Virus record (IMG/VR): IMGVR_UViG_3300032931_000778 | Span: 1 to 55,733 of that record | Source: a virus | Reading direction: 5' to 3' (one strand) | DNA length: 55,733 nucleotides | Shown: piece by piece, positions 6,352 through 39,362 of the stretch | How the letters are laid out: every line of letters begins with the position of its first letter | Numbering within the stretch: position 1 is the stretch's first letter | Notes under the pieces: generated by a model | Databases searched by the model: none | Seen by the model: only the letters and a program-made list of their open reading frames with translations | What the model was told of the DNA's origin: nothing | Made by a program: the position numbers and the translations under genes

Positions 6352-6714
6352 CTAGCGGCCCCCCAAGATCTTGTTGCGCACGTAGTCCGCCGCCGGCACA
6401 TAGAGCGTCATCCCCGGATAGATCTCGTTATCGGGCAGGTCGAGCCCATTGCGCAGGGCGAGCACCCACCACAGGGCCTCGTCCTGGTAGTACTCCAGCG
6501 CGATCTGGTCCAGGCGCTTCGCGCGCCCCTCGATCACCACCGCCGACTCGTGGTTCGCCACGTCCGGCAGCGCGGGGGGCACGAACGGCGCGTAGAACCG
6601 CACGTAGGCGTCCGCCTCGCTATCAAACACATATTCCTCGGCCATGCGGCGCATCGGCGAGGAGACCGGCGCCTGGAGCTGCCGCAGCGTGTTGCCCTTC
6701 CCAAGATCTGCCAT
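6352..6714 (-). CDS. gp53-like baseplate wedge protein with LysM-like segment
   Basis: The 120-aa protein has E-G-R-A-K-R-L-D-Q-I-A-L-E-Y-Y-Q-D followed by L-W-W-V-L-A-L-R-N-G and I-Y-P-G-M-T-L-Y-V-P. This is the layout of the LysM-like part of T4 gp53 and related wedge proteins, which clamp wedges around the hub. The N-terminal half is short compared with T4 gp53 (about 196 aa). The stop lies one base before the hub ATG. The gene lies right after tape measure, as in many contractile phages. Peptidoglycan binding is possible in principle, but the structural role is better supported. Confidence 0.75.
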   Translation of the reverse strand: MADLGKGNTLRQLQAPVSSPMRRMAEEYVFDSEADAYVRFYAPFVPPALPDVANHESAVVIEGRAKRLDQIALEYYQDEALWWVLALRNGLDLPDNEIYPGMTLYVPAADYVRNKILGGR

Positions 6715-11423: not shown

Positions 11424-12362
11424 TCAGGCGTCTTCGGGCGCGACCTCGGCTGCCACGAGGATCGCGGCCTCGCGCTCTACCTCGGCGTCCCCCTCGTCCA
11501 CATCGTAAGCCACCTCGGGCGGGGCCGGCAGCGGGTCGAGCCCCTCCAGCACCGCAATGGCGAAGAACCGACTGTAGAAGTACAGGCGCCCCTTGCCCGT
11601 GATGCGCGTCGTACGGTCGATCACCGCGCTCCCCTCCTGGGTCTCGCGCACGTGCTCCACGATCACCATGATGCGCTGCTCGATGCTGCGCTGTGTGGGT
11701 TCATTGCGCCGCGCCCCCCGCTTGTGGACAAAGCCCTCCTCGCGCAACCACGCGAAAAACACGTTCTGCCCCACGCGCTTGCCCGTGCCCTGCGTGATCG
11801 CCTTGGCCACCTGCCCCACATAGTACGAGGTCGGCGAGTCCATCACGCTCGCTGCGAAGCTCACGAACGGGGCCGAGCGCTCCTGATAGCGCACGAGCTG
11901 CTGTACCTGCACCTCGGCCTCGCGCCGCCCCTTAGCCTCCAACAGCCACGCCTCCGCCGAGGCGATTGGGTCGTTGAAATCGGGCAGCCCCGGCGGCACC
12001 GCACCGGGGGCCGTGTAGTTCCCCGTGCGCCGGATGCTAGGGATCACCTCGCCCGCGATCCACTTCTGGAATGGCAGGGCCCTTTCCATGTTACTGCGGG
12101 ACATGAAGAAATATAGCCCTTGCTCAGAAAGGCTAAGGATCTCCTGCATCCCACCAGGGGTAAGAAACGGTTTCTTACCCTTCCACTCCTCAGGAACATT
12201 TTCGACAAGATTCGTCATGCTGGTAGCTACTGTGCCATCTGGGTATCCAAGGGCCCGAGCTACATCCTTGGCTACCCACCACAGCTCTCCGTCGAACATG
12301 TCGACACGCACCTGGTTGCCCTCAAACTCGAACGCCCGCACGATCGCTGATTGCTCGCTCAT
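11424..12362 (-). CDS. Antirepressor with Bro-N and KilAC domains
   Basis: 312 aa, starting at ATG 12362 with AGGAG seven bases upstream. Residues about 8-110 form a Bro-N domain: V-D-M-F-D-G-E-L-W-W-V-A-K-D-V-A-R-A-L-G-Y, then S-E-Q-G-L-Y-F-F and F-Q-K-W-I-A-G-E-V-I-P-S-I-R. A KilAC (ANT) domain follows from about 165: Y-Y-V-G-Q-V-A-K-A-I-T-Q-G-T, V-F-F-A-W-L-R-E-E-G-F-V-H and N-E-P-T-Q-R-S. Proteins of this design block prophage repressors or alter host transcription. An intrinsic terminator separates it from upstream genes, and an inverted repeat covers its leader, so it is probably expressed separately from the tail operon. A KilAC paralogue lies at 27446-28321. Confidence 0.85.
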   Translation of the reverse strand: MSEQSAIVRAFEFEGNQVRVDMFDGELWWVAKDVARALGYPDGTVATSMTNLVENVPEEWKGKKPFLTPGGMQEILSLSEQGLYFFMSRSNMERALPFQKWIAGEVIPSIRRTGNYTAPGAVPPGLPDFNDPIASAEAWLLEAKGRREAEVQVQQLVRYQERSAPFVSFAASVMDSPTSYYVGQVAKAITQGTGKRVGQNVFFAWLREEGFVHKRGARRNEPTQRSIEQRIMVIVEHVRETQEGSAVIDRTTRITGKGRLYFYSRFFAIAVLEGLDPLPAPPEVAYDVDEGDAEVEREAAILVAAEVAPEDA

Positions 12363-12372
12363 AAACACTCCT

Positions 12373-12411
12373 GTGGTTGTGGGATGGCGTTACCGCAGCC
12401 ATCCCAACCAC
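12373..12411 (-). promoter_or_regulatory. Inverted repeat in the antirepressor leader, abutting its ribosome site
   Basis: Arms at 12373-12388 and 12398-12411 match over 14 positions, with two extra bases in the arm nearer the gene. The repeat ends at the AGGAG of the antirepressor. It could be an operator or an RNA stem that limits initiation. Confidence 0.5.
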
Positions 12412-12442: not shown

Positions 12443-12479
12443 AAAAAAATGGCCATCGGTGACGGTAACACCGATGGCC
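12443..12479 (-). terminator. Rho-independent terminator upstream of the Bro-N antirepressor
   Basis: On the minus strand a perfect 11-bp stem (GGCCATCGGTG with its complement, 7-nt loop) is followed by A and seven T. It lies after the stop of the basic protein gene and before the antirepressor, so it should end the accessory-island transcript. Confidence 0.88.
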
Positions 12480-36145: not shown

Positions 36146-36667
36146 TTAGCTGATCGCGCGGGTCCGAGAGGTCTCGAACACGCCACTGTAGGACACCGTA
36201 TCGCTGACCGTCACCAACAGCGTCTCGCTGGCGTCGTACATCTTCCAGGTGATCGTCGTCGGAAATGCGCCAGCATAAGAGATCGTCTTCTCCACGATCT
36301 TCTTCTTCCCCGCCCCGGCCTGGTCGTACCAGACGATCGCCGTGGGGAACACCGTCCCCGTCATCTCCCGGTACGCCCCGCTGGCGAAGCCATCAGCGGG
36401 ACCATGGTCGATAAAATGTATCAGGTGGCGCAGCGCCTTGTGCTGGTCCACCGTGATCCCCTGGCCGCTCACCGTCGCCCACGTCACCGGGCTGTCGTCC
36501 ACCAGCATCCACACCGAGTTGTCATCGAGCTGGCGGGCGAACTTCCCCACGTCGGCCGGGAGCAGGCCCGTCGCGCCCTCGCGCGTGGCCGTGTCCGTGT
36601 ACGAAAACGACAGCGGCGCATGGATCTGCTCGGGGATGAGGTCTTTATGGAGCGAGGTACTCGGCAT
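36146..36667 (-). CDS. Fibre-associated virion protein
   Basis: 173 aa from ATG 36667 (TGATG with the previous stop). L-S-F-S-Y-T-D-T-A-T-R-E-G-A-T-G-L-L-P-A-D-V-G-K-F-A-R-Q-L-D and S-V-W-M-L-V-D-D-S-P-V-T-W form a small domain seen in phage fibre gene groups. The C-terminal half has repeated T-I-S-Y-A-G-A-F-P-T-T-I-T-W-K and T-V-S-Y-S-G-V-F strands. Likely a fibre component or adaptor. Partner unknown. Confidence 0.62.
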   Translation of the reverse strand: MPSTSLHKDLIPEQIHAPLSFSYTDTATREGATGLLPADVGKFARQLDDNSVWMLVDDSPVTWATVSGQGITVDQHKALRHLIHFIDHGPADGFASGAYREMTGTVFPTAIVWYDQAGAGKKKIVEKTISYAGAFPTTITWKMYDASETLLVTVSDTVSYSGVFETSRTRAIS

Positions 36668-37011
36668 CACGGCTCCTTCTTCACGATGAAACGACCCTGG
36701 TTGTTATACACCAGCCCGCCCCACGTCGTAATAATCAAGATCCCCGGATCGAACGCGCTGGCCTCCCCCTCCAACAACTGGGTCAGCGTGTATGGCCCCC
36801 CCGCCACCTTGTCCGCGAAAAGCATGTCGTCGGTCGCGTCATCCCGCCCGATCCACACGTCCTCATCGTCCGAGGTCGTGCTCTGGATGGTGACCCCGTG
36901 CGCGTCGAGGTAGTCCTCGCTGGGATCCGTCGAGGTCGGCCCGAAGTCCGTCTCCACGCCCCCCGTGCCGGGATCCTCAAGCTTGAGAGGCTGGACGCGA
37001 TCCTTAGCCAC
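36667..37011 (-). CDS. Small fibre-associated virion protein
   Basis: 114 aa, GTG start with AGGAGG upstream. The N-terminus V-Q-P-L-K-L-E-D-P-G-T-G-G is a pattern common at the start of small phage structural proteins. An acidic middle follows (D-P-S-E-D-Y-L-D-A-H-G-V, S-D-D-E-D-V-W). The end G-L-V-Y-N-N-Q-G-R-F-I-V-K-K is strand-like. Nine bases separate it from the HNH gene. Confidence 0.62.
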   Translation of the reverse strand: MAKDRVQPLKLEDPGTGGVETDFGPTSTDPSEDYLDAHGVTIQSTTSDDEDVWIGRDDATDDMLFADKVAGGPYTLTQLLEGEASAFDPGILIITTWGGLVYNNQGRFIVKKEP

Positions 37012-37019
37012 GATGCCTC

Positions 37020-37880
37020 CTAGTCGATGACGTGCGCATGCGTGCGCCGCTGAAGGACATTATACACAGTCATCGGCGAGACACAGAAGATCTGGGCCAG
37101 GTCGCTCGCGGAATGGGTGCCCTGTGCCATCGACGTGCGGATGTACTGTACGTCTTCATCCAAAAGGAAATAATTGCGCCCGCGCCCCTTCATAACCTTG
37201 TCCTGCATGTTTTCAGCCTGCGTACCCAGTGACAAATGCGCTGGATTCACACACGACGGATTGTCGCACCGATGCAAGATCACCCGCCTATCAGGAATTG
37301 ATCCGTTATGAATCTCCCAAGAAACACGATGCGCCAGCAACTTCCGCTTCCGCTCCGAATCGTAAATCATGCCATACCCAATCCCATTCGTGCTACCCAT
37401 CCACGACCAGCACCCCTCCCCGCGCTCCACGTACTTCCAAAACCGCTCCTGCACAGGAACCGCATCCGGCCCCGTATGCGACCCATTGATCCGCCGCGAT
37501 GTTAGGATCTTCTGGACGTGCTCAGCGGATAACGTCACCCCGCTATGCCAGTGCCGATCCCCCTTGTAAGTCCGGCTCTCCTCGAAAATCCCCAACCGCT
37601 TCAGTTGCCCCAAGATGCGCCTGCGCGTGGTCCCAAAGTGATCCGACAACGCCTGCGGCGACTTGCCACCCTGATACAACGCGGTCAGCTCACCCGCATC
37701 GACGTCCTGCGTCTTGAGCAACATGATGGCCTCCTTACGCGACCGCACCGGAATGCCGTGCCGCCGCAGCTCCTTGCGCACTGAATTTGGAAGCACACCG
37801 ATCTCTGTACCGATCTCAACAGCGCTGCGCTGCTCCTCCACATAACGCTGCAACAGGAATTCACGAGTCAGGGTGGGCAT
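37020..37880 (-). CDS. HNH homing endonuclease with helix-turn-helix domains
   Basis: 286 aa. Two helix-turn-helix-like segments occupy the N-terminal 110 residues (S-A-V-E-I-G-T-E-I-G-V-L-P-N-S-V-R-K and S-P-Q-A-L-S-D-H-F-G-T-T-R-R-R-I). The HNH_3 core follows, about residues 150-225: F-W-K-Y-V-E, G-C-W-S-W, Y-G-M-I-Y, A-H-R-V-S-W, then L-H-R-C-D-N-P-S-C-V-N-P-A-H-L-S-L-G-T. A last helix-turn-helix reads S-A-S-D-L-A-Q-I-F-C-V-S. It resembles the gene at 15144-15710 in its core but has more DNA-binding parts. The start codon and ribosome site lie in a hairpin with a promoter just upstream. Confidence 0.88.
   Translation of the reverse strand: MPTLTREFLLQRYVEEQRSAVEIGTEIGVLPNSVRKELRRHGIPVRSRKEAIMLLKTQDVDAGELTALYQGGKSPQALSDHFGTTRRRILGQLKRLGIFEESRTYKGDRHWHSGVTLSAEHVQKILTSRRINGSHTGPDAVPVQERFWKYVERGEGCWSWMGSTNGIGYGMIYDSERKRKLLAHRVSWEIHNGSIPDRRVILHRCDNPSCVNPAHLSLGTQAENMQDKVMKGRGRNYFLLDEDVQYIRTSMAQGTHSASDLAQIFCVSPMTVYNVLQRRTHAHVID
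37033..37048. repeat. Alternating pyrimidine-purine motif, copy 7 (shortened)
   Basis: TGCGCATGCGTGCGCC, two bases shorter than the others, in the last codons of the HNH gene (R-T-H-A-H). Confidence 0.45.
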
Positions 37881-37912
37881 CTTCTCCTCCTTGGTTTTTC
37901 AGAGGAGAAGAT
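37878..37912 (-). promoter_or_regulatory. Hairpin burying the ribosome site and start codon of the HNH gene
   Basis: CTTCTCCTC (37902-37910) pairs perfectly with GAGGAGAAG (37881-37889) across a 12-nt loop. Two more A-T pairs and a wobble draw in the ATG. The whole ribosome site is in the stem, so a read-through transcript should translate poorly. Confidence 0.75.
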
Positions 37913-37939
37913 ACTGAGCGGGTGTTTCTAATTTGTCAA
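37911..37939 (-). promoter_or_regulatory. Promoter candidate for the HNH gene
   Basis: Perfect TTGACA at 37934-37939, 17-bp spacer, CAGTAT at 37911-37916. The expected start, about 37904, falls inside the 5' arm of the hairpin, so this transcript would lack most of that arm. The -10 is weak. Confidence 0.5.
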
Positions 37940-37955: not shown

Positions 37956-39362
37956 TTATATCTTTTTCCCCATGTATTGCTTCTGGACTAAGAGAGATCG
38001 CACCGCGCAGGTGAAGCCCATCTGCATGACGTGCTTGCCACCGCCCGGCACGACTTTGGTCAGGCCGCCCGTGGCCGCGACGTACCAGCGGTCGCCCATC
38101 GTCTGATCGGACCCGAACACCGCCGCTGCCACGCCGTCGATCACGACGGGGCAGGTGAACCCATCCGCCCCGCCGAGGTGCGCGATGCCGCACGCGAACG
38201 CCTTGGCGTCGGTATCGGCCCGCGCCTTGGACACCTTGCCTGCGGCTGTCAGGTAGACGGGATCGCCCAGGGCGATGGCCCCGTCGGCGACGAAGTCGTA
38301 CTCCACGCGCTCGGACTCGCCCGCGCCCGGATGGCTATGCAGCGTGGTCGAGCTGCCGTCCACCAACTCGGTCAGGTTGTCCGCCGTGACCAGCGGATCC
38401 ACCGCTGTCCCGCCGATGGTGAACGACGTGGGGAGGCCCAGCACCTTCACGCCGTCGGAGGTGAGCCCCAGGGTGGCGTCGCTGTCCGTGTTGTCCACGA
38501 GGATCGTGAGGCCGTAGGTCGAGGTCTGGTAGCGCGCCAGACCACCGGCAGCCGCCACGGCGACCCGCAGCTTGCCCGAGGCGGTATCCGCATCGAACTC
38601 CAAGCCGGACTTCCGCGAAGCCGTCGGGGCGCCCGCCCCTTGCGCATCCGCGTTGCCGTCGAGTTCGACGTAGACGCTGTTCACGTCGCGCTTGAGGCCC
38701 TGGTCGTAGGTGAGCCCCGGTGCCCCGCTGAACTGGGCGAACTTCAGCGCCGTGGTCTCCATCGTGATCGGCAGTGGCGTCACGAGGGTCCAGCCCGTGT
38801 TCTTGAGCGTGCTGCCGTCCGTGACGAACACGTACAGGCCGGTCGCCATCTCGCCCGCCGCCGCCTGGTCCGCGTCCGTGGCGCGCGTCAACTGGAAGGC
38901 CACATCGACGCCGTTGCCCAGCGCTGAGACGGTGTACACGCCGTTGTCGATATCCGCCGTCGCATCGTCGCCCCCCTGCATGGACACCAACACGCGCTGC
39001 CCGATCGTGGTCAGCAGGTACCCGTCGATGGTGTTGTGCGCCACGGTGAAGTCCGGCGCGGTCAAGGTGTGCCCGACGCCCGTGCCGCCGCCCGACACGT
39101 AGCTCGTCAACTCGGCAGGCGTCTTGACGATGACCGCCTCATGGGGCGTGAGCCCCGAGGCGATGGCATCCACGTAGTTCTTGTTGACCGCCGAATCGCC
39201 CTCGGTGGGGTACGAGATGTTCTTGACCTCGTTGCCGCCGAGGTCGATGTCGCCCCCGAAGGTGGTGCTGGGCAACTGGAGGATGTCCGATCCGGTCGTG
39301 GCCGGATCCAACTCGGACGGATACCCATCCGCATGCAGCTTCAGGACATAGATGTTTGCCAT
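37956..39362 (-). CDS. Fibre-like virion protein
   Basis: 468 aa. The N-terminus I-Y-V-L-K-L-H-A-D-G-Y-P, then F-G-G-D-I-D-L-G-G-N-E-V-K-N-I-S-Y-P and D-S-A-V-N-K-N-Y-V-D-A, is the typical head of phage fibre proteins, where the last motif precedes the shaft. A beta-rich shaft follows (Y-L-L-T-T-I-G-Q-R-V-L-V, G-V-Y-T-V-S-A-L-G). The end, G-F-T-C-P-V-V-I-D-G-V-A-A-A-V and R-W-Y-V-A-A-T-G-G-L-T, resembles fibre or appendage tips. It lies far from the baseplate genes, in the head-neck half of the window, so a neck or capsid fibre is possible. Confidence 0.68.
   Translation of the reverse strand: MANIYVLKLHADGYPSELDPATTGSDILQLPSTTFGGDIDLGGNEVKNISYPTEGDSAVNKNYVDAIASGLTPHEAVIVKTPAELTSYVSGGGTGVGHTLTAPDFTVAHNTIDGYLLTTIGQRVLVSMQGGDDATADIDNGVYTVSALGNGVDVAFQLTRATDADQAAAGEMATGLYVFVTDGSTLKNTGWTLVTPLPITMETTALKFAQFSGAPGLTYDQGLKRDVNSVYVELDGNADAQGAGAPTASRKSGLEFDADTASGKLRVAVAAAGGLARYQTSTYGLTILVDNTDSDATLGLTSDGVKVLGLPTSFTIGGTAVDPLVTADNLTELVDGSSTTLHSHPGAGESERVEYDFVADGAIALGDPVYLTAAGKVSKARADTDAKAFACGIAHLGGADGFTCPVVIDGVAAAVFGSDQTMGDRWYVAATGGLTKVVPGGGKHVMQMGFTCAVRSLLVQKQYMGKKI

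Follow-up and report, generated by a model that had tools for sequence, protein, structure and literature searches.

The HNH gene and its neighbours

The genes and leader features considered here are collected in Table 1. All lie on the minus strand of the window, by which we mean the whole 55,733-nucleotide stretch of virus record IMGVR_UViG_3300032931_000778. The product of the central gene comprises an N-terminal HTH-like region, an HNH_3 domain and a C-terminal HTH, and the residues that are invariant among its HNH relatives are all kept. With a nuclease domain whose key residues are intact, accompanied by DNA-binding domains, it is by its domain content a free-standing HNH homing endonuclease. 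The G+C content of the gene is low, at 57.8%, and its GC3 of 0.725 is the lowest of the gene calls listed (middle value 0.88), as would be expected if the gene were a late arrival. A repeat search around the gene gave nothing convincing by way of direct repeats or element ends flanking it.

Table 1. Genes and leader features at the HNH locus of the window
Feature	Position	Strand	Basis
Upstream gene, 468 aa, head decoration / tail fibre-like	37956..39362	-	PHROGs head decoration E 1.2e-14, tail fiber E 2.7e-9
-35 hexamer TTGACA, 17-bp spacer to CAGTAT	37934..37939	-	Sequence
-10 hexamer CAGTAT, 3/6 match, weak; overlaps base of 5' arm	37911..37916	-	Sequence
Alternative -10 TATCTT, without a good -35	37913-37908	-	Sequence
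Predicted transcription start, 7 nt past -10, within 5' arm	37904..37904	-	Inferred from promoter spacing
5' (anti-RBS) arm, GUAUCUUCUCCUCU	37901..37914	-	RNAfold, 14 pairs; 11 perfect Watson-Crick pairs
Hairpin loop, 10 nt, GAAAAACCAA	37891..37900	-	RNAfold
3' arm: most of the Shine-Dalgarno and the whole AUG	37877..37890	-	RNAfold
Shine-Dalgarno AGGAGG, 5 nt 5' of ATG	37886..37891	-	Sequence; anti-SD duplex energy -10.9 kcal/mol
HNH_3 endonuclease gene, 286 aa	37020..37880	-	Pfam HNH_3 E 1.5e-13 and HTH_38; PHROGs
Downstream gene, 114 aa, 8 nt past the HNH gene	36667..37011	-	Gene calls

The upstream virion gene ends 75 nt 5' of the HNH start, with no terminator called between the two, and is presumed to be the source of read-through RNA. 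At that distance, a ribosome terminating on the upstream gene would probably be too far off to unfold the stem described below.

The window holds a second HNH_3 gene (15713-15144, minus strand), which overlaps its upstream neighbour; its starts open at 8-10 kcal/mol, and no hairpin or leader of the present kind was found there. Elsewhere, perfect inverted repeats at 12158-12180, 12380-12406 and 12451-12479, with stems of 10, 9 and 11 bp, fall within about 320 bases and are possibly terminators or structured RNA.

A predicted hairpin over the start codon

The leader of the HNH gene contains a perfect 11-bp inverted repeat, whose right arm takes in the ribosome site and the first two letters (AT) of the ATG. 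Positions 37912-37902 pair with 37889-37879 in a contiguous Watson-Crick stem, which the predicted RNA fold extends to its full 14 pairs once G-U and flanking pairs are counted. The fold has a z of -3.2, and an equally good one arose in one of 200 shuffles. Perfect 11-bp stems are not rare as such, about 0.7 being expected per 55.7 kb and two being seen; the stem is remarkable for its position on the start codon, not for its length. Opening the Shine-Dalgarno and start codon of the HNH gene is calculated to cost 21.0 kcal/mol, the highest value among the 59 gene calls of the window (mean 8.0, sd 3.3). When the upstream 46 nt were permuted with dinucleotides kept, none of 2000 shuffles reached the observed cost, and 18 of them reached 15 kcal/mol. 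On read-through RNA, according to this modelling, the ribosome-binding site and start codon are sequestered in a stable stem.

A putative promoter in the 5' arm

The -35 hexamer of the window promoter is perfect, and the promoter is absent from the strict scan list. At 9.1, its score at the HNH position nevertheless exceeds that of every other gene call among the 59 (mean -0.3, sd 2.9); the shuffle p is only 0.04 because the -10 is weak. This -10 begins at -36 from the ATG, where the -10 of related HNH leaders most often starts. That sigma70 is used at this site is an assumption. A T4-type late promoter (TATAAATA) was sought at the window leader and not found, TTGACA-17-CAGTAT standing there instead.

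An RNA starting at 37904 would need 5.0 kcal/mol to open the start codon, against 17-21 for one starting at 37912 or farther upstream, and shortening the RNA beyond 37904 hardly alters the cost. Since opening costs drop at this point, the predicted start coincides with the place where the hairpin stops forming. Judged on sequence only, the gene appears to possess its own promoter, so placed that the resulting RNA misses enough of the 5' arm. The sequence-only reading had already named these promoter elements, and they lie where it put them, with the start, predicted from spacing, inside the arm. It had also described nine perfect pairs plus about three through the ATG: the stem over the ribosome site and ATG is there, and its extent had been understated.

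The same site in related viruses

Four viral contigs (L002-L005) lack an intact HNH gene and have its flanking genes, with a DNA identity of about 87-95%. In L002 (IMGVR_UViG_3300036761_001135, about 6401-6575) the leader is kept as far as CAGTA and is fused, at a second CAGTA, to the last 42 HNH codons. By this alignment, L002 is a deletion between 5-bp CAGTA repeats that took out the hairpin and most of the HNH gene, and it retains TGACA and CAGTA at unchanged spacing although the gene is lost. In the remaining three contigs the 3' end of the HNH gene persists in decayed form, and none of 300 shuffles aligned as well. In farther relatives the two flanking genes are directly adjacent, the 114-aa gene standing next to the 468-aa gene. 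No comparable hairpin is found at the site in relatives without the HNH gene.

The gene is thus present or absent at a single site among close relatives, with 3' remnants remaining; as relatives show the site without an intact gene, it is a mobile or dispensable insert among the phage genes of the virion cluster. Direct scans of viral and genome contigs yielded no close relatives of the whole HNH protein, and the exact leader of the window is without an intact homologue, the gene being lost in all four relatives of the locus.

A perfect TATAAT (37064-37059, minus strand) falls within the HNH gene at its 3' end, some 47 nt ahead of the 114-aa gene that follows, and is retained in relatives where the HNH gene is otherwise deleted or decayed (L002 6531, L003 6497). 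It may serve the 114-aa gene as a promoter carried within endonuclease coding sequence, an arrangement known from T4.

Hairpin leaders before other HNH genes

The frequency of such leaders was assessed in a first sample of 80 viral loci with HNH relatives, collected before the pattern was known. An opening cost of at least 18 kcal/mol was found for 15 of 79 HNH genes (a set that takes in six from named phages) and for one of 98 control ORFs at the same loci. When the viral genes of this sample were clustered, the hairpin was present in 12/74 clusters at 70% identity and 7/32 at 50%. Two further scans brought the total to 175 non-redundant genes; as these were queried with hairpin-bearing genes, the resulting prevalence of strong hairpins, 29/175 (16.6%), is biased upwards. 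Among control ORFs, which were defined mechanically with start codons chosen by Shine-Dalgarno strength, the figure is 7/665 (1.05%; Fisher p 5e-15), which gives HNH genes about a 16-fold excess of such hairpins over controls on the same contigs. The layout therefore recurs before related HNH genes, where the sequence-only reading had proposed looking for it, and some 77-83% of the relatives are without it. Among nine HNH genes in eight records of named phages, the leader was found only in MW202691 (ctkAd229). Mapped on the HNH tree, which is poorly resolved, the hairpin takes 21 changes, compared with 36.5 in shuffles; it is thus clustered, though still scattered over the tree.

The promoter goes with the hairpin. 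With the hairpin cut set at 15 kcal/mol, there were 40 hairpin genes and 135 HNH genes without one, and each was searched for a sigma70-like promoter whose -10 lay from -47 to -20 relative to the ATG. A promoter at p<0.05 was present in 65% of the former, 10% of the latter and 5-6% of controls; scores of hairpin genes and controls differ with a Mann-Whitney p of 4e-16. Where the -10 was picked blind to the -35, the spacing at which the -35 score peaked was exactly 17 bp: it was the choice of 10 of 32 genes, and the other spacings had 0-3 each. For the 26 genes having both hairpin and promoter, the start would on average cost 20.8 kcal/mol to open on read-through RNA and 5.0 on local RNA. The earlier proposition that read-through RNA hides the start and local RNA cannot do so fits the energetics of the window leader and is backed by the pairing of hairpin with internal promoter across the independent survey.

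The -10 showed no sharply preferred distance from the outermost paired base across the hairpin leaders, since some put it at the stem base and others near the loop; the test was accordingly recast as -10 distance from the ATG plus -35 spacing. Two sub-layouts are seen. In one, that of the window, the -10 lies at the stem base, most often starting at -36 to -33. In the other, the spacer between -35 and -10 is itself the 5' arm and transcription would start in the loop (L200, L131, L143). Most hairpin leaders have the layout in common but not the sequence. One 39-nt leader is identical in L054, L216 and L226, whose HNH proteins are only 42-69% identical and whose upstream DNA is also alike (76-84%), which suggests either faster divergence of the coding part or its exchange downstream of an unchanging leader. 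A TAAC-like motif occurs in many hairpin loops (L054, L136, L092, L074, L052, L146).

The genomic position of hairpin genes is also distinctive. A same-strand upstream gene precedes 36 of the 40, with a gap of 45-88 nt in 33 (median of the 36, 62 nt); the median gap for HNH genes without a hairpin is 9 nt, many of them overlapping or abutting the preceding gene. In about 30 of these 36 cases the upstream gene codes for a major head protein (SU10-type in 21, P22-type in 7, and others), as against about 2/65 and 10/42 in two sets of non-hairpin HNH genes. With about 21 of the 36 sharing one capsid family, not all are independent events. In MW202691 the gene order is scaffold, P22 coat, hairpin HNH gene, tail genes. 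The window gene differs in that its upstream neighbour is a head-decoration or tail-fibre-like gene, although the 75-nt gap is of the same size class.

Alternative explanations

Given that the perfect inverted repeat overlaps the promoter, it could be a DNA operator at which the HNH protein, through its HTH regions, or another phage protein represses transcription; autorepression of I-TevI at its own operator is established (PMC2988022). Several observations make this unlikely as the explanation of the hairpin. Across relatives the arms vary in sequence and are tied to the Shine-Dalgarno and AUG, the 3' arm being simply the ribosome-binding site. Within the stems, moreover, G-U pairs number 39 and A-C mismatches 3, a 13-fold preference, compared with 29 and 15 in controls (p 0.003), which points to selection acting on the RNA rather than on a palindrome in the DNA. 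An additional role as operator would be compatible with all this. Improbable to a slightly greater degree is an ordinary mRNA element, such as an attenuator, an RNase III site or an element stabilising the 3' end of the message from the upstream structural gene, whose overlap with the ribosome-binding site is accidental. The hairpin does lie between two same-strand genes of which the upstream one is a virion gene, but a scan between them gave neither a terminator call nor a U-run at the hairpin. Relatives without the HNH gene have no such hairpin at the site, and an ordinary element would account neither for the roughly 16-fold excess of hairpins before HNH genes nor for the promoters that they carry.

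Least probable of all, in our estimation, is a coincidental meeting of a purine-rich ribosome-binding site with a pyrimidine tract and a TTGACA. The expectation of 0.7 perfect 11-bp stems in a sequence of this size, together with the weak -10 and the modest p of the window promoter, would allow it. Against it stand the failure of all 2000 upstream shuffles to match the opening cost, the top rank of that cost among the 59 genes, and the fact that relatives repeat both parts of the layout at an equal distance from the ATG.

Comparison with known systems

A hairpin that sequesters the ribosome-binding site, combined with a promoter whose RNA cannot form it, is described for I-TevI, I-TevII, I-TevIII, segB and Aeh1 mobE (PMC2988022 section 12; PMC3014915), the promoter of I-TevI being a late one (PMC2988022; PMC3014915). 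The closest of these in kind is Aeh1 mobE (Gibb and Edgell 2007, 2009), which, as summarised in the two reviews (PMC2988022, PMC3014915), is like the window gene a free-standing HNH homing-endonuclease gene with a hairpin over its ribosome-binding site and a local RNA without the 5' part of that hairpin. On the same summary it differs in having a T4-type late promoter and lying inside nrdA of a T4-like phage, whereas the window gene has a sigma70-like promoter and lies in a virion cluster of a phage not of T4 type. An HNH gene with this layout, which the sequence-only reading took to suggest convergence or a mobile control cassette, is indeed what the window holds, but it has a precedent in mobE, and segB, I-TevII and I-TevIII share the layout.

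T4 I-TevI, in the td intron, and segB resemble the window gene in that the promoter lies at the base of the 5' arm and the start codon is paired with the arm. They encode GIY-YIG proteins, however, expressed late from T4 late promoters, and I-TevI sits in an intron; the promoter class of the window gene, an HNH gene, suggests early or constitutive expression instead. The likeness to I-TevI noted from the sequence accords with the reviews and is recovered by calculation: the start costs 14.5 kcal/mol to open in I-TevI and 15.9 in segB, against 6.2 for 20 other T4 genes, two of which also exceed 16. HNH_3 / zf-His_Me free-standing phage endonucleases (PHROGs 1872, 826, 59) form the family of the window protein and, unlike it, most members examined are without a hairpin leader.

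In IS10 and IS50, read-through RNA folds over the ribosome-binding site of the transposase gene, and RNA from the gene's own sigma70 promoter cannot. This fold-back, which shields the transposase start from outside transcription, was reportedly described by Davis, Simons and Kleckner in 1985 and by Krebs and Reznikoff in 1986. The hairpin there is formed by transposon ends and the gene is that of a transposase, whereas the window has no such ends and a homing endonuclease. Transposase control of the IS10/IS50 type was considered for the window gene and rejected, the protein being of the HNH type and convincing flanking repeat pairs being absent.

The logic of the switch is therefore already known, as the T4 and Aeh1 endonucleases and IS10/IS50 use the same trick. 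What appears to be new is the sigma70-type promoter, the occurrence in phages unlike T4, the breadth and the linkage to capsid genes. In the open literature searched, the precedents were T4-like only, and no account was found of a sigma70-type version outside T4-like phages, of its frequency or of the capsid link, although a subscription paper could have escaped the search. Of convergence and a mobile control cassette, the two origins first suggested, there has probably been some of both: one 39-nt leader is shared, while most leaders share layout only.

A proposed switch

We consider it likely that the window leader acts as a switch of the promoter-in-hairpin kind for a free-standing homing-endonuclease gene. 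Transcripts entering from the upstream virion gene would contain both arms, and their ribosome-binding site and AUG would be locked in the 14-bp stem; RNA begun at the sigma70-like promoter on the base of the 5' arm would lack most of that arm and leave the ribosome-binding site open. For this to hold, the promoter must be active, the stem must prevent initiation in vivo, and read-through RNA must be abundant late. The endonuclease gene would then be expressed at a low level, and perhaps early, from a weak promoter of its own, when the incoming DNA is transcribed by host-type RNA polymerase, and would be almost silent on the abundant late structural mRNA. Such near-silence would allow the gene to sit in a highly transcribed operon without a flood of nuclease. 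As the promoter looks sigma70-type rather than T4-late, the timing may be the reverse of that of I-TevI.

More tentatively, the window gene may belong to a widespread class of free-standing HNH genes, mostly behind major capsid genes of unrelated families, whose sigma70-type promoter-in-hairpin leaves them on early, or constantly at a low level, and off on late capsid mRNA. This would be a time-reversed and general form of the I-TevI logic, kept by selection despite divergence of the leaders; we regard it as a possibility a little short of probable. If true, hiding the start codon from read-through RNA would be a general strategy of phage homing endonucleases and not a peculiarity of T4, and an ordinary bacterial-type promoter would suffice to run the switch. 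It would explain how a nuclease gene can live beside the most strongly expressed genes of a phage, and would yield both a searchable sequence signature and a compact natural module that is silent unless self-transcribed.
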